Origin: Halosimplex salinum
GTDB taxonomy: Archaea > Halobacteriota > Halobacteria > Halobacteriales > Haloarculaceae
Reading direction: 5' to 3'
Assembly (NCBI RefSeq): GCF_003730195.1
Contig: NZ_QWGG01000012.1
Coordinates: 62,001-126,000, forward strand
Length of the DNA stretch: 64,000 nt
A program made the position numbers and the translations under genes. Positions within the stretch are counted from its first letter, which is position 1. Each line of letters starts with the position of its first letter. Below are positions 38,547 through 49,637 of this stretch, one piece after another. Below the pieces are notes generated by a model. It was not told the DNA's origin. It saw only the letters and a program-made list of their open reading frames with translations, and ran no database searches.

Positions 38547-39257
38547 TCAGCCGCCGAGGTAGAGCTTCGACACCTCGTCGTCCTCCAGGAGCCCGTCCGC
38601 GGACCCCTCGAAGCGGACGGTCCCCTGGTCGAGGACGTACCCGCGGTCGGAGATGCCGAGCCCCTTCGTCGCGTTCTGCTCGACCATGAGGATGGCCGTG
38701 TCGAGTTCGTTGACTGCCTGCACGTGGCCGAACACGTCGTCGGCGGTGTTGGGCGCGAGGCCGGCGGAGGGCTCGTCGATCAGGAGCACGTCGGGCTCCA
38801 TCACGAGCGCGCGTGCGAACGCGAGCACCTGCCGCTGCCCCCCGGAGAGCGTCCGGGCCTTCGCCGACCGCTTCTCGTCGAGCAGCTGGAATCGCTCGTA
38901 GAGCCGACCGATCGCCTCTTCGAGCCCCTCCTCGCGGGCGACGCCGCCCATCCGCAGGTTCTCGTCGATGGTGAGCGAGCCGAACACGTTGTCGGTCTGG
39001 GGGACGAAGCCGATCCCCTCGCGGACGATGTCCTCGGGCGCCATCCCGCCGATCTCGCGGCCGTGGTACAGGACGTTCCCCTCCCACGGCGTGAGCAGTC
39101 CGAACGCGGTCTTCAGTACCGTCGACTTGCCGGCGCCGTTCGGTCCGATGAGACAGACGATCTCGTTCTCGTCGAGGTGGAGCGAGAGGTCGTCGAGGAC
39201 CTGCACCTCGCCGTAGCCGCCGTCGACGTCGGCCAGCTCGAGGACGTGGTCGCTCAC
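38547..39257 (-). CDS. livF: Branched-chain amino acid-type ABC transporter ATPase (LivF)
   Basis: 236 residues, the LivF length. Walker A GPNGAGKST, Q-loop VPQTDNVFGSLT, signature LSGGQRQVLAFARAL, Walker B VLLIDEPSAGL, H-loop VEQNA. Last gene of a five-gene operon; its ATG (39257) overlaps the livG stop. Drives uptake of hydrophobic or other amino acids with LivG. Substrate of this system is undetermined; position next to proline dehydrogenase suggests proline or a related amino acid. Confidence 0.92.
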   Translation of the reverse strand: MSDHVLELADVDGGYGEVQVLDDLSLHLDENEIVCLIGPNGAGKSTVLKTAFGLLTPWEGNVLYHGREIGGMAPEDIVREGIGFVPQTDNVFGSLTIDENLRMGGVAREEGLEEAIGRLYERFQLLDEKRSAKARTLSGGQRQVLAFARALVMEPDVLLIDEPSAGLAPNTADDVFGHVQAVNELDTAILMVEQNATKGLGISDRGYVLDQGTVRFEGSADGLLEDDEVSKLYLGG

Positions 39258-40072
39258 GCGTCACCTCCCAGGTACGCCTCGATGACGCGGCTGTCCGTCT
39301 GCACCCGCTGGGGCGGTCCTTCCATGAGGACGCTCCCCTGGTCCAGTACCACGACCGGGTCGGCGAGTTTCATCACGAAGTCCATGTCGTGTTCGATGAG
39401 GAGACAGGTCGTCCCCTCGTCGTTGAGCCGCTGGATCTGGTCGGCGAGCTTGTTCCGGAGCGTCGGGTTGACGCCCGCGACGGGCTCGTCGAGCAGGAGT
39501 ATCTCGGGCTCGGCCAGCATCGCCCGCGCGAGTTCGACCAGTTTCATCTGCCCGCCGGAGATGTCCGTCGCCGGCTGGGTCGCCAGGTGGTCGATCTCGA
39601 ACTCCTCCAGAATCCGTTGGGCGTCCGCGAGGTTCCGTTTCTCGGCCTCGCCGACCGACCCCGGCGACGTGAGCAGGTTGACGAACGACTCGCCGGGCTG
39701 GTTGCGCGGCCCGACGAGCATCGCCTCGCGCACGGTCATCCCCTCCAGCTTCCGCGGCGTCTGGAAGGTCCGGATCAGGCCGTGGTCGGCGACCTCGTAG
39801 GGCTCCATCCCGGTCACGTCGACGCCGTTGACCTCGACGCGGCCGCCGTCGGGCTGGTAGAAGCCCGAGATGAGGTTGAATATCGTCGACTTGCCGGCGC
39901 CGTTGGGGCCGATGAGGCCGGTTATGGTCCCGCGCTCCACGTCGAAGGTGGCGTGGTCGGTCGCGACCAGGCCGCCGAACGTCTTCTGGAGGTCCTCGAC
40001 GCGGAGGACGACGTTCTCCTTCGAGCGGTCGGCGGCGAACTCCTGGTCGACGGCTTCCTCGACGTCACTCAT
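39254..40072 (-). CDS. livG: Branched-chain amino acid-type ABC transporter ATPase (LivG)
   Basis: 272 residues from ATG 40072 (a GTG nine bases further upstream is possible). Walker A GPNGAGKST, signature DISGGQMKLVELARAML, Walker B ILLLDEPVAGVNP, H-loop IEHDMDFVM. The insert after FNLISGFYQPDGG (GLIRTFQTPRKLEGMT) is typical of LivG. Starts inside the end of livM (overlap about 8 bases) and overlaps livF by four bases, so all are translated from one message. Confidence 0.92.
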   Translation of the reverse strand: MSDVEEAVDQEFAADRSKENVVLRVEDLQKTFGGLVATDHATFDVERGTITGLIGPNGAGKSTIFNLISGFYQPDGGRVEVNGVDVTGMEPYEVADHGLIRTFQTPRKLEGMTVREAMLVGPRNQPGESFVNLLTSPGSVGEAEKRNLADAQRILEEFEIDHLATQPATDISGGQMKLVELARAMLAEPEILLLDEPVAGVNPTLRNKLADQIQRLNDEGTTCLLIEHDMDFVMKLADPVVVLDQGSVLMEGPPQRVQTDSRVIEAYLGGDA

Positions 40073-41303
40073 CGCCACCACCTGCCTTGACGTCGCGGAC
40101 GCCGCTGTCCGGCCGCGACGGCGCCTTATCGACCGCCGTGGGCCAGATGAGTTCCCGCTGTGGCGGGAGCACGCCCTGCGGCCTGAACCGCATCAGCAGG
40201 ACGATCAGCACGCCGATCATGAGGAACCGGAGCGGCGCCACGTCGACGGGGATCCACGCGAACTCGTTGAGGAAGCGCGTCCCCTCGCGGATGCTGACGA
40301 TGACGACGCCGCCGAACAGCGCGCCGCGGTTCGACCCGCTCCCGCCGAGGATCACCGCGACCCAGACGTAGAACGTCGTGATCGGGTCAAGGTCCCCGGG
40401 GCTGACGAAGAGGTTCAGGTGCGCGTAGAACACGCCGGCCAGCGCCATCAGCAGGCTGCCCAGCACGAACGACTGCATCTTGAACGAGTACGTGTGCTTG
40501 CCGAGCGCCCGCGCGAGGTCCTCGTCCGACCGGATCGTCCGCAGGACGCGACCCCACGGCGAGCGGTGGACGCGGCGCAGCAGCGCGTAGCTCAGGCCGA
40601 CGAACGCCAGGACGAGCGCGACGTTCAGGAGCGCCCGCCAGAACGACGTGCCGAGCAGCAGCGTCGACGACGGGATCACGAACTCGAGGCCGACGTCCAC
40701 GACGGGGACGGTGAACGTCGTCCGCCAGCCCGGCGAGACGACGATCTCCAGTCCCGGCATCGACTCGGGGAACGTCGCCAGCACCGGCCACCCCTCGAAG
40801 AAGCTCGGGATGCCGCGGATACCGGCCGTCCCGTTCGTCCACTGGCCCTCGTTTTTCACGATGGTGCGGACGACCTCGGCGAGGCCGAGCGAGGCGATAG
40901 CGAGGTAGTCCGCGCGGAGGCGAAGCGTCGGGATACCGATCAGCAGGGCGAGGACGGCGGCGAGGACGAGCGCGACGACGAGGCCGATCAGCGGGTTGAA
41001 CCCGCCGGCGAGCGGCGACCCCTCCGCGGTCATGAGCGCTGTCCCGTACGCGCCGACCCCGAAGAACGCGGCGACGCTGAAGTTGATCAGCCCGGTGAAC
41101 CCCCACTGGGAGTTCAGGCCGAACGACAGCAGCGCGTACATGCCAGCGATGCCGACGAGATAGAGGAAGTACGTCGGCGCGAGCGCGCCGCTGAGCAGTC
41201 CGAACAGGAGCAACGCGGCGAAGCCGACGACGAACCACGTGACGCCGCGTTCGGCGCGCGTGAGGTCCGCCCAGTGGGCCCGCGCCCTCGTGACTGCGCT
41301 CAT
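40065..41303 (-). CDS. livM: Branched-chain amino acid-type ABC transporter permease (LivM)
   Basis: 412 residues, with about ten membrane helices. The family motif region GLNSQWGFTGLINFSVAAFFGVGAYGTALM and, near the C-terminus, GLGSNRGALFGG-like GGSGSNRGALFGGVVIV are present. An insert around residues 170-230 is longer than in bacterial LivM, with a periplasm-side loop (FEGWPVLATFPESMPGLE). C-terminal 45 residues are soluble and charged. One base separates its start from the end of livH. Confidence 0.9.
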   Translation of the reverse strand: MSAVTRARAHWADLTRAERGVTWFVVGFAALLLFGLLSGALAPTYFLYLVGIAGMYALLSFGLNSQWGFTGLINFSVAAFFGVGAYGTALMTAEGSPLAGGFNPLIGLVVALVLAAVLALLIGIPTLRLRADYLAIASLGLAEVVRTIVKNEGQWTNGTAGIRGIPSFFEGWPVLATFPESMPGLEIVVSPGWRTTFTVPVVDVGLEFVIPSSTLLLGTSFWRALLNVALVLAFVGLSYALLRRVHRSPWGRVLRTIRSDEDLARALGKHTYSFKMQSFVLGSLLMALAGVFYAHLNLFVSPGDLDPITTFYVWVAVILGGSGSNRGALFGGVVIVSIREGTRFLNEFAWIPVDVAPLRFLMIGVLIVLLMRFRPQGVLPPQRELIWPTAVDKAPSRPDSGVRDVKAGGGDE

Positions 41304-41304
41304 G

Positions 41305-42249
41305 TCAGACCGCCTCCCCGGCGATGCCCTGCGGCCTGAACAGCAGGACGATCACCATGATGACGAACGCGATTGCGCTGCCGTACTGGTTGCCGATGGG
41401 CAGCCCGAACGTGTCGGGCAGGTACGGCAGGACCGCGCCGAGCTGTGAGAGCAACGGCGTCAGCTCGTGGATCATCCCGATGAGGAACGCCCCGAGCATC
41501 GCGCCGTACACCGAGCCGATCCCGCCGAGGATGACGGCAGCGAAGATCAGGAGGAGGAGGTCGAAGCCCATCCGCGGCCGCAGCAGGTTGAACAGGCCGA
41601 GGAAGACGCCCCCCGAGCCGGCGAGTCCGGCGCCGATGACCCACGTCCAGAGCTTGATCCGGTCGGTCCGAATCCCGCTCACGCGCGCGAGGTCGGGGTT
41701 GTCCGCCATCGCGCGCATCTTCCGCCCGAGGTCGCTGTACTGGAGCAGGACGTGCAGTCCGGTGACGAGCACGGCGGCCGAGATCACGATCGCCACGTCG
41801 TGTTCGGTCACGCGGACGTCGTACGGGAGCAGCCACTCGATGGGGCGGAGCGCCTGGATGTCGTAGCGGACGGCGTCGGCGCCGAACCACATCTGGACCA
41901 CTGCGCGGTAGATAAAGGCGATCCCGATCGAGGTGATCAGCATACCGATCGAATCGAGGTCCATCCCCTCGTAGACGACCTTCTCCGTGATCACGGCGAC
42001 GAGCGCGGCCACGGCGATGCCCGCCAGCAGCGCGACGAAAAAGCCCAGTGGGAGCCCGAGGACGGCCCCGCCCAGTCCGCCGATGGCTCCGAACGTGACG
42101 AACGACGAGTAGGCGCCGACGGTCATCGTGTCCCCGTGGGCGAAGTTGGCGAAGTCGGCGATGCTGTACACCAGGGAGAGGCCGATGCTCCCGAGGATGA
42201 TGATGCTACTGAATATCAGCCCGCTCGCGATGTGATCGAGGAGGACCAT
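41305..42249 (-). CDS. livH: Branched-chain amino acid-type ABC transporter permease (LivH)
   Basis: 314 residues, eight or so helices. ASGLIFSSIIILGSIGLSLVYSIADFANFAHGDTMTVGAYSSF is the classic LivH start, and GIGSVYGAMLGAFLIGMIHEL the coupling-loop region near the C-terminus. It forms the membrane channel with LivM. Six bases separate it from livK. Confidence 0.92.
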   Translation of the reverse strand: MVLLDHIASGLIFSSIIILGSIGLSLVYSIADFANFAHGDTMTVGAYSSFVTFGAIGGLGGAVLGLPLGFFVALLAGIAVAALVAVITEKVVYEGMDLDSIGMLITSIGIAFIYRAVVQMWFGADAVRYDIQALRPIEWLLPYDVRVTEHDVAIVISAAVLVTGLHVLLQYSDLGRKMRAMADNPDLARVSGIRTDRIKLWTWVIGAGLAGSGGVFLGLFNLLRPRMGFDLLLLIFAAVILGGIGSVYGAMLGAFLIGMIHELTPLLSQLGAVLPYLPDTFGLPIGNQYGSAIAFVIMVIVLLFRPQGIAGEAV

Positions 42250-42255
42250 CGGTCC

Positions 42256-43608
42256 TCAGGACTCGATGAAGCCGGTCCCGACGTAGTCGTGGTCCTGGAC
42301 CGTCTGGATCTGCAGGAACCCGACGGGGTCGCCGTTCTCGTCGAAGTCGATCGGACCGCTCACGCCCTGGTAGTCGAGGTCGTCCACGCCGCCGTCCTCG
42401 AGGATCGCGCTCGCGGCCTCGAACGTCTCGGCCTTCTCGCCTTCGGGACGGGTCACTTCGCGGACGGTCTCCTGGAGCGCCGCGCCGGTGAACTCGTCGG
42501 CCGCCTGGATCGACAGCGCGGCGGTGATAACGCAGTCGTAGGCGTAGGCCGACCACGAGGTCGGCGACTCGTCGTAGGCCTCCTCGAACCGCGCCGCGAA
42601 GTCCTGGTAGTTGTCTTCCTCGACCGGCGCCGAGGGCACGACGATCTTCATCCCTTCCATGCTCCCCTCGGGCGTGTTCTCGAGCACGTCGTCGCCCGAG
42701 ACGGAGTCGGCGCCGTACAGCGGCGCGTCGTAGCCGCTGGAGAAGATCTCGTTGACCATCGTCGCGAACTCCGCCTGGTAGGTGACGAACAGCCACGCGT
42801 CCGCGTCGGAGCTGTTCATCTCCGAGACGACCCCGGAGTAGGACTGCTGGTCCTGGTCGTGGGCCTGGTTGTACGCGACGTCGCCGTCCCAGGCCTCGAC
42901 GAAGGCGTCGGCGAGGCTCTGTCCGTAGTTGTTGTTGACGTAGGTGACCGCGACCGAGTCGTGGCCGTCGTCGGCGATGATGTCCGCGAGCGCGACCGAC
43001 TGCGTGCGGCCCGTCGGGGACATTCGGAGCAGCCCGGGGAAGTCGGTCAGCCCCAGCCCCGTGGAGTTCTGGCTCAGCTGGACGACGTCGGTGTCCTGGA
43101 TGACGCTCTCGTAGATCGCGAGCGAGACGCCGGACCCGACCGAGCCGATGAGGAACGGCACCCCGTCCTGGTTGACGAGTTTCTGTGCCGCCGAGACGCC
43201 GCCCTGGCTCTCGGACTCGGAGTCCTCGACGATGATGTCGAGCTCGCGGCCGTCGATCCCGACCTCGTTCACCGTCTCCAGGGCCAGTTCCGCCCCGCGC
43301 TGGTTGCGCTCGCCGAACGCCGACAGCGAGCCCGTCAGGGAGTCGACCATCCCGATCTCGTAGGATCCGCCGTTCCCGCCGTCGCCCGACGGCGTCTCCG
43401 TCGGCGTGTCGGTGTCGCCGCCGCTCCCGTCGCCGCCGTTCCCGTCGCCGCCGTCGCCGTCTCCGCCGTCACTGTCGCCGTCGCCGCCGTCGCCGCCGTC
43501 ACTGTCGTCCGTGGTGTTGACACAGCCCGCCAGCCCGGCCAGTCCGACCCCACCCGTCAGCTTCAGGAGCGTTCGTCGGTCGATGTCGTCCGTGGTATCT
43601 CGTGACAT
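42256..43608 (-). CDS. livK: Tat-exported substrate-binding lipoprotein of the Liv-type importer (LivK)
   Basis: 450 residues. DRRTLLKLTGG (R11-R12) and GLAGC (C29) mark a Tat lipoprotein; a Gly/Asp repeat linker (30-75, DGGDGDGGDG) spaces it from the membrane. The ligand-binding part is a periplasmic-binding-protein type I fold: EIGMVDSLTGSLSAFGERNQRGAELALETVNEVG, VPFLIGSVGSGVSLAIYESV, VTYVNNNYGQSLADAF, SSWSAYAYDCVITAALSIQAA. First gene of the operon, divergent from proline dehydrogenase. A box GGCTTAACC (43637-43645) lies about 27 bases before its probable transcription start. Confidence 0.92.
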   Translation of the reverse strand: MSRDTTDDIDRRTLLKLTGGVGLAGLAGCVNTTDDSDGGDGGDGDSDGGDGDGGDGNGGDGSGGDTDTPTETPSGDGGNGGSYEIGMVDSLTGSLSAFGERNQRGAELALETVNEVGIDGRELDIIVEDSESESQGGVSAAQKLVNQDGVPFLIGSVGSGVSLAIYESVIQDTDVVQLSQNSTGLGLTDFPGLLRMSPTGRTQSVALADIIADDGHDSVAVTYVNNNYGQSLADAFVEAWDGDVAYNQAHDQDQQSYSGVVSEMNSSDADAWLFVTYQAEFATMVNEIFSSGYDAPLYGADSVSGDDVLENTPEGSMEGMKIVVPSAPVEEDNYQDFAARFEEAYDESPTSWSAYAYDCVITAALSIQAADEFTGAALQETVREVTRPEGEKAETFEAASAILEDGGVDDLDYQGVSGPIDFDENGDPVGFLQIQTVQDHDYVGTGFIES

Positions 43609-43636: not shown

Positions 43637-43645
43637 GGTTAAGCC
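43637..43645 (-). promoter_or_regulatory. TATA-like box of the liv operon
   Basis: Minus strand GGCTTAACC, predicted start near 43614 and a 6-base leader. The element CCATGGTCGGG begins 13 bases upstream of it. Confidence 0.45.
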
Positions 43646-43653
43646 CAACCCTC

Positions 43654-43664
43654 CCATGGTCGGG
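43654..43664. promoter_or_regulatory. CCATGGTCGGG element upstream of livK
   Basis: First of three identical 11-base copies in this gene block (others at 45442 and 45508). Its distance from the predicted livK TATA centre (about 14 bases to its near edge) equals that of the copy upstream of the Bat-type regulator. Confidence 0.5.
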
Positions 43665-43754
43665 CCGAATCCGTTCGGTCGAGAGTATCGGAAATCTCAC
43701 CGTCAGGATCGGCTGAGGCGTATTTATCTCACGCGGCCGAGCGGCGAAACGTTT

Positions 43755-43772
43755 GGTCGGGTGGTTACTTAG
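43755..43772 (+). promoter_or_regulatory. Proline dehydrogenase promoter with GGTCGGGTGG element
   Basis: GGTCGGGTGG (43755-43764) abuts a TATA-like GTTACTTAG (43764-43772) centred 27-30 bases before ATG 43798. The same ten bases abut the box of the aldehyde dehydrogenase gene. A second TATA-like GTATTTATC is at 43720-43728. Confidence 0.45.
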
Positions 43773-43797
43773 GGAGGTGTCGGACCGAGTGTCGGCA

Positions 43798-44625
43798 ATG
43801 ATTCCGCCGATCGCCAGCAACTTTGTCGCCGGTGAGACGCCGGAGACGGCGCTGGCACACGTCGAGGAACTGAACGAGAACGGGGTGGCCGCCATCGTGA
43901 ACCTCCTCGGGGAACACTACGAGGAACGCGCGCCCGCGGACGCGGACGCGAACGAGTACGTCGAACTCGCCGACCTGATCGCCGAGCGCGGCGCCGACGC
44001 CTGCATCTCGGTCAAACCGAGCCAGATCGGGCTGGAAGTCGGCGCGACGGCGTTCGAGGAGAACCTCGCGCGGATCGTCGACGCCGCCGACTGCTTCGTC
44101 TGGGTCGACATGGAGGACCACGAGACGACCGACGTGACGCTGGACGCCGTCGAGCGCCACACCGTCGAGACCGACGGGCAGGTCGGCGTCTGCGTCCAGG
44201 CGAACCTCAAGCGCACGCGCGAGGACCTCGAACGCCTGGCCGACCTGCCGGGGAAGGTCCGGCTGGTCAAGGGCGCCTACGACGAACCCGCCGAGATCGC
44301 CTACAAGAAGAAGGCTCGCGTCGACGAGTCCTACCGCGACCTCCTGGAGTTCATGTTCCGCGAGTTCGACGACGGGGTGGCCGTCGGGAGTCACGACCCG
44401 GCGATGATCGACCTCGCGCGGGACCTCCACGAGGAGTACGGGACCGCCTACGAGGTGCAGATGCTGATGGGCGTCCGCGAGACGGAGCAGTACGCCCTCG
44501 CCGACGAGGTCGACGTCTACCAGTACATCCCCTACGGGAGCAAGTGGTTCTCCTACTTCTACCGGCGCGTCAGGGAGCAGAAATCGAACGCGCTGTTCGC
44601 ACTCAGGGCCGTCGTCGGGCGGTAG
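43798..44625 (+). CDS. Proline dehydrogenase
   Basis: 275 residues from ATG 43798; an in-frame upstream extension lacks conserved features. The protein is a TIM barrel of the PutA/PRODH type: SNFVAGETPETALAHVEELNENGVAAIVNLLGEHY, FVWVDMEDHETTD, RLVKGAYDEPAEIAYKKKARVDESY with the flavin-binding lysine/arginine region, VGSHDPAMIDLA, FEVQMLMG-like YEVQMLMGVRE and the substrate-binding YIPYGSKWFSYFYRRVRE. It oxidises proline to pyrroline-5-carboxylate and feeds electrons to the quinone pool. An aldehyde dehydrogenase for the next step follows two genes later. Confidence 0.93.
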   Translation: MIPPIASNFVAGETPETALAHVEELNENGVAAIVNLLGEHYEERAPADADANEYVELADLIAERGADACISVKPSQIGLEVGATAFEENLARIVDAADCFVWVDMEDHETTDVTLDAVERHTVETDGQVGVCVQANLKRTREDLERLADLPGKVRLVKGAYDEPAEIAYKKKARVDESYRDLLEFMFREFDDGVAVGSHDPAMIDLARDLHEEYGTAYEVQMLMGVRETEQYALADEVDVYQYIPYGSKWFSYFYRRVREQKSNALFALRAVVGR

Positions 44626-44661
44626 AACTGGCGGGGATCGGCGGTCGTCGCGGTCCGTGAC

Positions 44662-45384
44662 TTACGGGTCGAGCAGTTTGGATTCGGCCTTCCGCAGGTG
44701 TTCGAGCAGCGTCGTCTTCGAGACGTCGAGGTCGGCGGCCAGTTCCCGCGTAGAAGTGCCGCGGGGCCAGTCGTAGTAGCCCACCTCGCGCGCGTGTTCG
44801 AAGACTTCCCGTTGCGTGGTAGTGAGCGTGTCGAGGCGCCGGTCGCGCGCCGACCCGCCCGGCCCCTCGCTGGTCGTGATCGAGTCGACGGTCACCTCGG
44901 CGCCGGCCTGCTCGCGGACGCCGTCGAGGGCGTCCTCGATCCCCGAGCGGTCCTCGGCGAAACACACTTCCCACTGTTCGCTGCCGTCCTCGATCCGGAC
45001 GGGCGCGCTGTGGACGAAGCCGTGTTCGAGCAGGGTCGGACACACCATGTCGTCGGGGTCGTACTCGAGGAAGAACTCGCGGACGACCTCGCCCGGCGCG
45101 TTCCGCCCGCGACCGAACCGCTCCTGGAGTTCGAGTACTTCACCGGAGCGGTCCGAGGCGCGGATCGTATCGAGCAGTTCCTCGACTGCGCCCTCGTCGG
45201 GGCCGAATGCCGTGAACAGGCCGTTGACCGACGCGGGTCGGTCGGCCACCGTCTGGGGCGAGTTGTAGATGGCGTGTGCGAGCACGCCGCCGGCCGTCTG
45301 TTCGGTCGCCTCGATGGCCCAGCAGTTCGGATGCCACAGGTCCAGCGTCAGCCGCGTCCCTGATATCTCGTCGGCGATACTCAT
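44662..45384 (-). CDS. Bat-type HTH transcriptional regulator
   Basis: 240 residues from ATG 45384. The first 150 residues form the sensor half of short bacterio-opsin-activator-like proteins (ADEISGTRLTLDLWHPNCWAIEATEQT, FLEYDPDDMVCPTLLEHGFVHSAPVRIEDGSEQWEVCFAEDR). The C-terminus is an HTH_10 helix-turn-helix (LTTTQREVFEHAREVGYYDWPRGTSTRELAADLDVSKTTLLEHLRKAESKLL). It lies between proline dehydrogenase and the aldehyde dehydrogenase, whose gene it diverges from, and is the natural candidate regulator of both. Confidence 0.88.
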   Translation of the reverse strand: MSIADEISGTRLTLDLWHPNCWAIEATEQTAGGVLAHAIYNSPQTVADRPASVNGLFTAFGPDEGAVEELLDTIRASDRSGEVLELQERFGRGRNAPGEVVREFFLEYDPDDMVCPTLLEHGFVHSAPVRIEDGSEQWEVCFAEDRSGIEDALDGVREQAGAEVTVDSITTSEGPGGSARDRRLDTLTTTQREVFEHAREVGYYDWPRGTSTRELAADLDVSKTTLLEHLRKAESKLLDP

Positions 45385-45423
45385 GCGTGGTATAGACCTC
45401 CTCGGGGCCTTTACGTGCCAGAT

Positions 45424-45432
45424 ACTATATAA
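45424..45432. promoter_or_regulatory. TATA box in the divergent Bat regulator/aldehyde dehydrogenase region
   Basis: ACTATATAAG/CTTATATAG. On the minus strand it is centred about 44 bases before ATG 45384 (leader about 17). Its symmetry would also allow plus-strand use. Confidence 0.55.
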
Positions 45433-45441
45433 GGGGGCCGC

Positions 45442-45452
45442 CCATGGTCGGG
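45442..45452. promoter_or_regulatory. CCATGGTCGGG element, second copy
   Basis: Exact copy of the 43654 element, starting 14 bases from the centre of the Bat regulator's TATA box, on the upstream side. Confidence 0.5.
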
Positions 45453-45507
45453 TGCGCCGACGAATCGGCCGAATTCGGACCGTTCGGAGCCCGAGAGTTC
45501 GTCCCGT

Positions 45508-45530
45508 CCATGGTCGGGTGGGACGTTTCA
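45508..45530 (+). promoter_or_regulatory. CCATGGTCGGG element, third copy, with aldehyde dehydrogenase promoter box
   Basis: CCATGGTCGGG at 45508-45518, extended to GGTCGGGTGG (45512-45521), directly abuts GACGTTTCA, centred about 28 bases before ATG 45555. The arrangement copies that of the proline dehydrogenase promoter. Confidence 0.5.
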
Positions 45531-45554: not shown

Positions 45555-47072
45555 ATGGTAGAGACACACCGGCAGTACATCGACGGCGAGTGGGTCACCG
45601 GCGACGGGACGGAGACGTTCACGAGCGAGAGCCCCGCGACGGGCGAGACGCTGGGCGAGTTTCACCGGGGGACGCCCGCCGACGTCGAGCGCGCGGTCGA
45701 CGCCGCGAGCGCGGCCTTCGAGGAGTGGCGCGAACTCTCCCGGATCGAGCGCGCCGAGTACCTCTGGGACGTGTACCACGCGCTCAAGGAGTCCGTCGAT
45801 GAGCTCGGCGCGACCGTCTCCCGCGAGTGCGGCAAGGAGATAAGCGAGGGCCGCGCGGACGTGGTCGAGGCCGCTCACATGGTCGAGTGGGCCGCCGGCG
45901 ACGCCCGCCACCCCAAAGGCGACATCGTGCCCTCCGAGATCGCCAGCAAGGACGCCTACATGCGGCGGAAACCCCGCGGCGTCACCGGCTGTATCACGCC
46001 GTGGAACTTCCCGGTCGCCATCCCCTACTGGCACATGGCGGTCGCGCTCGTCGAGGGCAACACCGTCGTGTTCAAACCCGCCGAGCAGACGCCGCTGTGT
46101 GCGAACGTCGTCGCGGAACTGTTCGCCGAAGCGGGACTCCCGGACGGCGTGTTCAACATGGTCCAGGGCTTCGGCGACGCCGGCGAGGCCATCGTCGACT
46201 CCGACGACGTGGACACCGTCCTCTTCACGGGCTCCGCGGAGGTCGGCCACCAGATCGGGCAGGCCGTCGCCGCCGACCCCGGTAAGCGCGCCGCCTGCGA
46301 GATGGGCGGAAAGAACGCCGTCGTCGTCACCGAGCAGGCCGACCTCGACGTCGCCGTCCACTCGGCCGTGATGTCCTCGTTCAAGACGACCGGCCAGCGC
46401 TGCGTCTCCAGCGAGCGCATCATCGTCCACACTGACGTGTACGACGAGTTCAAGGAGCGCTACGTCGCGGCCGCCGAGCGCGTGGCCGTCGGCGACCCGC
46501 TGGACGAGGACACCTTCATGGGCCCGCTGATCGAGGCCGAGCACCGCGAGAAGGTCGCGGAGTACAACGACCTCGCCCGCGAGGAGGGCGTCGACGTGCT
46601 CGTCGACCGCGCCGACCTCGACGCCGAGGAGATCCCGGAGGGGCACGAGGACGGCCACTGGATCGGTCCGTTCGTCTACGAGGCCGATCCCGACGCCGAC
46701 CTGCGCTGCACCCACGAGGAAGTGTTCGGTCCCCACGTCGCGCTCCTGGAGTACGACGGCGACATCGAGCGGGCGGTCGAGATCCACAACGACACCGACT
46801 ACGGCCTCGCCGGCGCGATCATCTCCGAGGACTACCGGCAGATCAACTACTACCGCGACCACGCGGAGATCGGGCTCGCCTACGGCAACCTCCCGTGTAT
46901 CGGCGCGGAGGTCCAGCTCCCGTTCGGCGGCGTCAAGAAGTCCGGGAACGGCTACCCGAGCGCCCGCGAGGTCATCGAGGCCGTCACCGACCGCAGCGCG
47001 TGGACGCTGAACAACTCGAAGGACATCGAGATGGCCCAGGGCCTCTCTGCGGACCTCTCCACCGACGACTGA
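45555..47072 (+). CDS. NAD-dependent aldehyde dehydrogenase, likely pyrroline-5-carboxylate dehydrogenase
   Basis: 505 residues. Catalytic cysteine in TTGQRCVSSERII, catalytic glutamate in CEMGGKNAVVV, NAD-binding GCITPWNFPVAIPYWHMAVALVEGNTVVFKPAEQTP and LFTGSAEVG, and the C-terminal EVFGPHVALLEY and PFGGVKKSGNGYPSAREVIEAVTD. The sequence is of the ALDH7/P5CDH-like kind. Neighbouring proline dehydrogenase makes glutamate semialdehyde, so conversion of that to glutamate is the likely role; other aldehydes cannot be excluded. Start ATG 45555 fits the promoter; the open frame continues upstream without homology. Confidence 0.9.
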   Translation: MVETHRQYIDGEWVTGDGTETFTSESPATGETLGEFHRGTPADVERAVDAASAAFEEWRELSRIERAEYLWDVYHALKESVDELGATVSRECGKEISEGRADVVEAAHMVEWAAGDARHPKGDIVPSEIASKDAYMRRKPRGVTGCITPWNFPVAIPYWHMAVALVEGNTVVFKPAEQTPLCANVVAELFAEAGLPDGVFNMVQGFGDAGEAIVDSDDVDTVLFTGSAEVGHQIGQAVAADPGKRAACEMGGKNAVVVTEQADLDVAVHSAVMSSFKTTGQRCVSSERIIVHTDVYDEFKERYVAAAERVAVGDPLDEDTFMGPLIEAEHREKVAEYNDLAREEGVDVLVDRADLDAEEIPEGHEDGHWIGPFVYEADPDADLRCTHEEVFGPHVALLEYDGDIERAVEIHNDTDYGLAGAIISEDYRQINYYRDHAEIGLAYGNLPCIGAEVQLPFGGVKKSGNGYPSAREVIEAVTDRSAWTLNNSKDIEMAQGLSADLSTDD

Positions 47073-48285: not shown

Positions 48286-48950
48286 GCGGCGTTCGACCGT
48301 CAGATCGGCGCTGAGAGCGAGCGCCGACGGCACACCCGCGGCTCGGCGGTCGGGTCAGAGGGAGGCGCGCAACGCCCGACAGCGGACGTCCGCTCTCGTG
48401 GCGGGCGTTTCAGAGGGGTCAGACCTCCCACCGGTGCTACCGTAGAGAGCGACTATAACCTCCGTATTTAGGAAGATCGCTACAGGCGTCTCGGGGAACA
48501 GGAGGGAGGGGAGTCCCGTACGGGCCGCGTGTCGGCCCGCTCGTGACACTGTATCGAACGGTAGATGTCTCATACCCTCGAGGATCGACTTCATTCGCCG
48601 TTTTCAGGGTGAAAGAGCGCCGACAGTGCGGTCTCGGGTTTAACCGGGTCGACGGTACGCGAGCGGGCGTGTGCGTCGAATCAGAACGGTTCCGCCCGGT
48701 CGACTCCGCTCGGTCGATTCCGTCGATCGCCTCCGCTCGGTCGCCGACCAGTGGGGCGGTTCGGGTTCGAAACGACCGCTCGAGACCGACTCCCGGAGCG
48801 TGAGAACGCGACACGACGCCGAAATCGGCTGATCTGCGTTCGACGGACGGTGTTCCAGAGAAGAGGGTCGATACTGCCGGGAGGCGGCCGGTAACTCTGC
48901 CAATAACGAAACGTCCGCTGTGGGACTGTCCGGTGGAGAGGCTTCACAAC
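48286..48950. other. 665-base gene-free region
   Basis: No frame here looks coding on either strand: those that stay open (for example 48543-48803 plus, 48437-48814 minus) give low-complexity, Arg/Ser/Thr-rich products without recognisable domains. The first half is less GC-rich (CGACTATAACCTCCGTATTTAGGAAGATCGCTAC near 48450-48480, which could hold a promoter). The end (CAATAACGAAACG, about 48901-48912) lies 40-50 bases before ATG 48951 and may be that gene's promoter. Could hide a non-coding RNA. Confidence 0.5.
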
Positions 48951-49637
48951 ATGGACAGTTCGAACGGCGGCGTGGGTGGCGAATCGACCGGACTCGACCG
49001 CAGAAGCGTGCTGAAGCTGGTCGGGGCCGGTGCAGTCGGGATCACGGCGACGACCGGGACTGCCAGCGCGTGGCAGTTCCAGTTCTACGGGTGTAGCCAG
49101 GTGTGTTCCGACAGCAGGAACAGCAGAGCCGTCGTGGCGGTCGACGGCGGATACGAGTGTCGGGAGATGAAAGAGTACAACTCGGACAGACAGAACCAGG
49201 ACTGGGCGTGGGCGTCCGCCTGTTACGAGGTCTCCGGCGACGAATCGGTCGTCGGGATCGTCGAGACCTGCAACCGGGAGGAACCCGAGTTCTGCGAGAA
49301 CCCGAACAACTGCGCGTCGAATCACTACGGAACGGTCGACGAGGTGGTCGCGGAACTGAACGAGATCGGATGCTGTAAGCGAGACATCGTTCCGGGCAGT
49401 TGCGACGTGTCCGGGACCGGCAACGGCGGAAACGACGACGAAAATAGCGGCGACGAGAACGCAGACGGAGACGAAGACAGCAACGGCGACGAGAACGGCA
49501 ACAAAGGCGGGAACGGCGACGAGAACGGCAACAAAGGCGGGAACGGCGACGAGAACGGCAACAAAGGCGGGAACGGTGACGAGAACGGCAACAAAGGCGG
49601 GAACGGTGACGAGAACGGCAACAAAGGCGGGAAATAG
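48951..49637 (+). CDS. Tat-secreted cysteine-rich protein with C-terminal Gly/Asn/Asp repeats
   Basis: 228 residues. LDRRSVLKLVGAGAVG (R17-R18) with a cleavable end TASA/W near residue 40 is a Tat signal without lipobox. The mature core of about 100 residues has ten cysteines (GCSQVC, YEC, SAC, ETC, EFC, NNC, GCC, GSC), exceptional for a haloarchaeal protein and suggesting several disulfides. The C-terminus has five perfect or near-perfect GDENGNKGGN units. Likely released to the medium or cell surface. I do not recognise a family. GTG 48933 in frame is an alternative start. Confidence 0.78.
   Translation: MDSSNGGVGGESTGLDRRSVLKLVGAGAVGITATTGTASAWQFQFYGCSQVCSDSRNSRAVVAVDGGYECREMKEYNSDRQNQDWAWASACYEVSGDESVVGIVETCNREEPEFCENPNNCASNHYGTVDEVVAELNEIGCCKRDIVPGSCDVSGTGNGGNDDENSGDENADGDEDSNGDENGNKGGNGDENGNKGGNGDENGNKGGNGDENGNKGGNGDENGNKGGK
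49485..49634 (+). repeat. Five 30-bp tandem repeats inside the cysteine-rich protein gene
   Basis: Unit GGCGACGAGAACGGCAACAA plus AGGCGGGAAC, five copies in frame, differing at one or two third positions (GGC/GGT). Codes for GDENGNKGGN, the last ending K. Such perfect arrays are prone to copy-number change. Confidence 0.92.

Follow-up and report, generated by a model that had tools for sequence, protein, structure and literature searches.

A 14-bp inverted repeat, CC(G/T)nCCATGGn(C/A)GG, found at three promoters of one gene cluster of Halosimplex salinum and replaced by a half-site at a fourth, is very probably the switch site of a regulon for proline use that appears not to have been described before. 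The element would be the operator through which an HTH_10 protein encoded in the cluster controls a small regulon; this protein is predicted to bind as a dimer and to activate the transport and oxidation of a substrate that is probably proline, together with its own gene. From comparative sequence analysis, the probability of this reading is put at about 0.82. Specific archaeal regulators with their regulons are known as a kind; for this regulon itself, a partial literature search found no earlier description. To our knowledge, only a small number of archaeal activators have a known operator. Haloarchaea encode many HTH_10 proteins, one of which would now gain a predicted operator, a spacing rule and a regulon in many genera.

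The cluster lies within a stretch of 64,000 nucleotides that was analysed as a whole (the window). A livJ-type amino-acid substrate-binding lipoprotein (42256..43608, minus strand; PF13458, E 2e-45), relatives of which with solved structures bind amino acids, branched-chain ones among them, is followed downstream by the permeases livH and livM and the ATPases livG and livF (38547..42249, minus strand; Pfam BPD_transp_2 and ABC_tran). Proline dehydrogenase (PRODH; 43798..44625, plus strand) matches PF01619 (E 4.9e-27) and also NF045947, below the cut-off of that model (E 1.6e-54); with the half-site upstream, a proline dehydrogenase thus lies under the element, as expected of a proline-catabolic regulon. 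The putative binder, a regulator of 240 aa, is encoded at 44662..45384 on the minus strand. Aldehyde dehydrogenase (ALDH; 45555..47072, plus strand; PF00171, E 4.8e-145) is a conserved neighbour of PRODH in relatives and is predicted to be a probable P5C dehydrogenase; its TIGR01237 score of 321.8 bits is below the cut-off of 659.65, and no curated equivalog cut-off was reached. Its homologue in H. volcanii is likewise a P5CDH by prediction only (PMC6801745).

The preliminary description of this DNA had reported three intergenic copies of an 11-mer and estimated well under one chance copy in the window. The window scan located CCATGGTCGGG at 43654, 45442 and 45508, always on the plus strand and always in intergenic DNA; shuffled sequence gave an expectation of 0.05 copies, and three were reached in 0 of 100 shuffles. 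Genome-wide, four copies were present in 5,072,893 bases, three of them the promoter copies of this locus; the fourth (L004, on another contig) lies over a start codon and was taken as chance. The copies are real, but the shared unit is the 14-bp inverted repeat rather than the 11-mer, since each copy is embedded in a near-perfect form of it: CCTCCCATGGTCGG (43650-43663), CCGCCCATGGTCGG (45438-45451) and CCGTCCATGGTCGG (45504-45517). The whole-genome search for frequent copies inside genes returned the relaxed repeat CCNNCCATGGNNGG at only four places, three at this locus and one coding (L029), the last taken as chance. A genome scan allowing two mismatches was uninformative (671 matches vs 587 for the reversed control). 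The shorter GGTCGGGTGG, which had been described as abutting the TATA-like boxes of PRODH and ALDH, is present there (43755 and 45512). It is expected 0.54 times in the window and 11 of 100 shuffles reach two copies, so that it is not significant by the window alone and becomes significant because of the comparison with relatives.

At livJ the operator (43650..43663, minus strand; CCGACCATGGGAGG on that strand) stands 7 nt from the TATA core TTAA (43639..43642, minus strand), which is ~32 nt upstream of the livJ ATG; this position and spacing are kept in 33 non-redundant loci. At the regulator gene the 14-bp inverted repeat (45438..45451, minus strand; CCGACCATGGGCGG on that strand) has TATATA (45426-45431) 6 nt away. 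The equal TATA distance claimed earlier for these two promoters holds, at 7 nt (livJ) and 6 nt (regulator) from the repeat end, and it extends to ALDH and PRODH. The ALDH operator (45504..45517, plus strand) precedes a TATA-like TTTC at 45526-45529 and the ATG at 45555. At PRODH, the half-operator AAACGTTTGGTCGG (43747..43760, plus strand) has an AT-rich left half, and its conserved right half TTTGGTCGG at 43752-43760 is the half-site found instead of a full repeat. The TATA-like core ACTTAG (43767..43772, plus strand) lies ~28 nt upstream of the PRODH ATG, and the mRNA is therefore probably leaderless. The ALDH start at 45555 agrees with the TATA and with relatives. Upstream of this start the ALDH frame runs on without a stop as far as an ATG at 45444, which falls within the first repeat (a 542-aa ORF), and automatic annotation may place the ALDH start too early, hiding both operators.

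Conservation in relatives was very strong. Halorussus, Haloferax, Halogeometricum, Halorarius and one Halorubrum MAG have the repeat in the orthologous intergenic regions between livJ and PRODH and between the regulator and ALDH. The repeat is conserved at orthologous sites across many genera in which the regulator is 60-80% identical. Regulators just 43-46% identical (L117, L119) retain the same repeat. The repeat was absent at the PRODH loci of Halobacterium, Halomicroarcula rubra and Haloarcula pellucida, all of which are without the regulator at the locus. Sixty loci picked by regulator homology alone were combined with an earlier set of PRODH loci, giving 76 regulator-bearing loci (765 kb); the repeat occurred in 61 of these, in 104 copies, and five control patterns with equivalent composition gave 0, 1, 0, 0 and 0 copies. 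The copies at 45438 and 45504 are 86% identical across 22 nt, as would be seen if the repeats had arisen by chance or by recent duplication of intergenic DNA. The shuffles, the genome-wide rarity and the controls speak against such an origin, and conservation across genera, where the flanking sequence varies between genomes and the repeat stays constant, refutes it; we consider it hardly credible.

The preliminary description had proposed the HTH_10 protein as binder, and this candidacy gains from co-occurrence. Of the 391 genomes of the class, 228 have a homologue of the regulator (E <= 1e-25) and 154 a close orthologue (E <= 1e-80). The motif CCGNCCATGGNCGG was present in 111 of the 154 genomes with a close orthologue (72%) vs 40 of the 237 others (17%), an association with Fisher p 2e-28 over the 391 genomes in raw counts that ignore phylogeny. 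Wherever the PRODH promoter of a regulator-bearing locus can be read (54 loci), GGT(C/A)GG ends 36-40 nt before the PRODH start codon (34 of them at 37). At PRODH loci without the regulator, two of them from the genus of the window and two from another genus with a regulator-bearing member, the half-site was found in 0/16 and the repeat in 0/16. The contrast of 54/54 vs 0/16, which includes same-genus contrasts (G161, G275), has p 4e-16, again by counts that ignore phylogeny. The composite of half-site and TATA, WTGGTMGGGTN6TWA, occurs once in the genome of the window, at PRODH. Another transcription factor, tied to the cluster by co-occurrence only, could bind the element, given that the genome holds 35 HTH_10-type matches to the regulator. 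The element, however, tracks the regulator rather than PRODH alone, as the regulator-less PRODH loci indicate, and loci with the regulator and liv genes but without PRODH keep it; a different factor is accordingly quite improbable. Regulator-less haloarchaea serve as natural controls.

With the sites of relatives set in register, a constant 7 nt separates the end of the site from the TATA core downstream at livJ, ALDH and PRODH, with the site adjoining the BRE position. The A+T content at +8 to +11 was 88, 100, 85 and 100% after the livJ repeat, 71, 90, 90 and 100% after the ALDH repeat, and 77, 91, 93 and 100% after the PRODH half-site. The AT peak at this fixed position means that the operator ends about where the BRE begins. 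The seven spacer bases between site and TATA are mostly G or C, with no A-rich BRE. An element at a fixed distance upstream of BRE/TATA, as in BRE-adjacent promoters of the GvpE type, was found at all three genes. Across relatives, no clear TATA peak accompanies the site of the regulator gene, probably because in many genomes there is a single repeat and it serves ALDH only, and autoregulation is for this reason less general than the other parts of the regulon.

Binding by the HTH_10 protein, its dimeric form, activation and a proline-type signal are what we infer from the element, its spacing, its conservation and its co-occurrence with the regulator. The earlier proposal of a small regulon for proline uptake and oxidation is strengthened by the same evidence and by the rarity of the repeat. 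A dimer of the regulator would bind the 14-bp repeat, or the conserved half-site at PRODH. Since the site ends ~7 nt short of the TATA core and adjoins the BRE position, the bound dimer would most likely recruit TFB/TBP to weak promoters. In this way it would turn on the liv-type importer, PRODH, ALDH and its own gene, and proline would be converted to P5C and then to glutamate by the two enzymes. The signal may be proline, a product, or the nitrogen state.

The main rival to activation is that the same regulator on the same operator represses by blocking TFB beside the BRE and is released by proline or P5C. Autoregulated catabolic regulators are often repressors, and the site abuts the BRE position, which suits this model as well. 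Against it, the site overlaps neither TATA nor the expected transcription start, the promoters look weak, with a GC-rich spacer and no A-rich BRE, and the literature treats Bat, NarO and DmsR, which are characterised HTH_10 relatives, as activators (PMC11218638). Repression is thus unlikely and activation is favoured, because the BRE adjacency, GC-rich spacer and weak TATA resemble the GvpE system and because these relatives are described as activators.

In haloarchaeal gas-vesicle promoters the GvpE UAS adjoins the BRE, and activation depends on the two lying close together (PMC4390858). The operator described here shares with it a two-part, BRE-adjacent element at a short fixed distance from the core promoter, as well as divergent promoters and a regulator gene inside the regulated cluster, GvpE being an activator (PMC4390858). 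The two differ in that GvpE is leucine-zipper-like and its UAS consists of two 8-nt parts separated by 4 nt (PMC4390858), whereas here an HTH_10 protein is paired with a 14-bp CCATGG-centred repeat. The Bat/bop regulon of Halobacterium is alike in its HTH_10 domain and in being a small regulon with a common upstream element (UAS). According to a title cited in PMC1447603, bop is without a TFB recognition element, and the promoters here are without an A-rich BRE. Bat differs in having PAS and GAF domains (PMC11218638) and in its pathway. NarO and DmsR are, like the present regulator, Bat-type proteins without PAS or GAF and are described as activators (PMC11218638); unlike here, their targets are anaerobic respiration genes.

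The HTH_10 domain of the regulator (PF04967, E 2.9e-20) occupies residues 187-238 and scores 72.3 bits vs a gathering score of 23.1, and it was the only domain match in the 240 aa, with no PAS or GAF. The name 'Bat regulator' used in the preliminary description was therefore too strong, as the protein has the HTH_10 of Bat alone. Along most of its length, the C-terminal HTH helix (SKTTLLEHLRKAE) does not vary in the alignment. The N-terminal part contains two predicted beta-alpha-beta-beta-alpha-beta domains (model mean pLDDT 77), which may bind a ligand. A PDB sequence search with the regulator gave no match; the best hit of a fold search, 5m86 (Ta1207; E 1.2e-3, TM 0.43), is too weak to name the sensor, and a partial literature search found no paper on Ta1207. 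There is about an even chance that the protein represents a class-wide haloarchaeal family of proline/nitrogen regulators, with full-repeat and half-site forms, one TATA spacing rule and an operator definable to base resolution from sequence, in which an amino acid is sensed via a two-domain N-terminal fold new to HTH_10.

In H. volcanii, PRODH (fadM2, HVO_1191) and ALDH (aldH2, HVO_1189) are co-induced on alanine vs ammonium, and the authors of that study found the signal unclear and left the regulator open (PMC6801745). The present protein, whose H. volcanii orthologue is by gene order probably HVO_1190, supplies a candidate for this missing regulator. A partial literature search found no paper on the gene between the two (HVO_1190 by gene order). 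The nitrogen-source cis motif of H. volcanii, AAAGACTAART, has a different candidate regulator (PMC6801745); it is AT-rich, unlike the repeat, and the PRODH/ALDH promoters were outside the MEME input (PMC6801745).

The repeat also follows genes that have moved. At one locus (L144) ALDH lies outside the cluster and still has the repeat upstream, and liv-type transporters carry it as well, whether close to the regulator or elsewhere (L077, L106, L107, L147). A second, distant set of liv-type transporters (24-34% identical) has the same operator (L147:4998, L106:5392, L107:4396, L077:5332). Perfect repeats distant from the regulator were seen in other genomes, some upstream of ALDH or liv genes; those at L116, L118, L145 and L146 look like chance. 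Close homologues at L105 and L108-L110 have no site nearby. In one lineage the full repeat is absent (L058, L061, L063, L067, L069, L070, L111, L113), and six of these loci (L058, L061, L063, L067, L070, L111) have a degenerate CGATCATGGTCG between ALDH and PRODH, possibly a rewired version. In the same six, ALDH and PRODH are divergent, the PRODH half-site is intact and the repeat is absent at the regulator. In one genome (G372), a perfect CCGACCATGGTCGG at L115:5332 lies directly upstream of a 643-aa ORF, with a different TATA spacing; the N-terminus resembles, by eye, aldehyde ferredoxin oxidoreductase, and the ORF is possibly an extra member of the regulon there. Elsewhere in the window, 48933-49637 encodes a secreted-looking protein with a start that appears twin-arginine-like by eye and C-terminal repeats of DENGNKGGNG.
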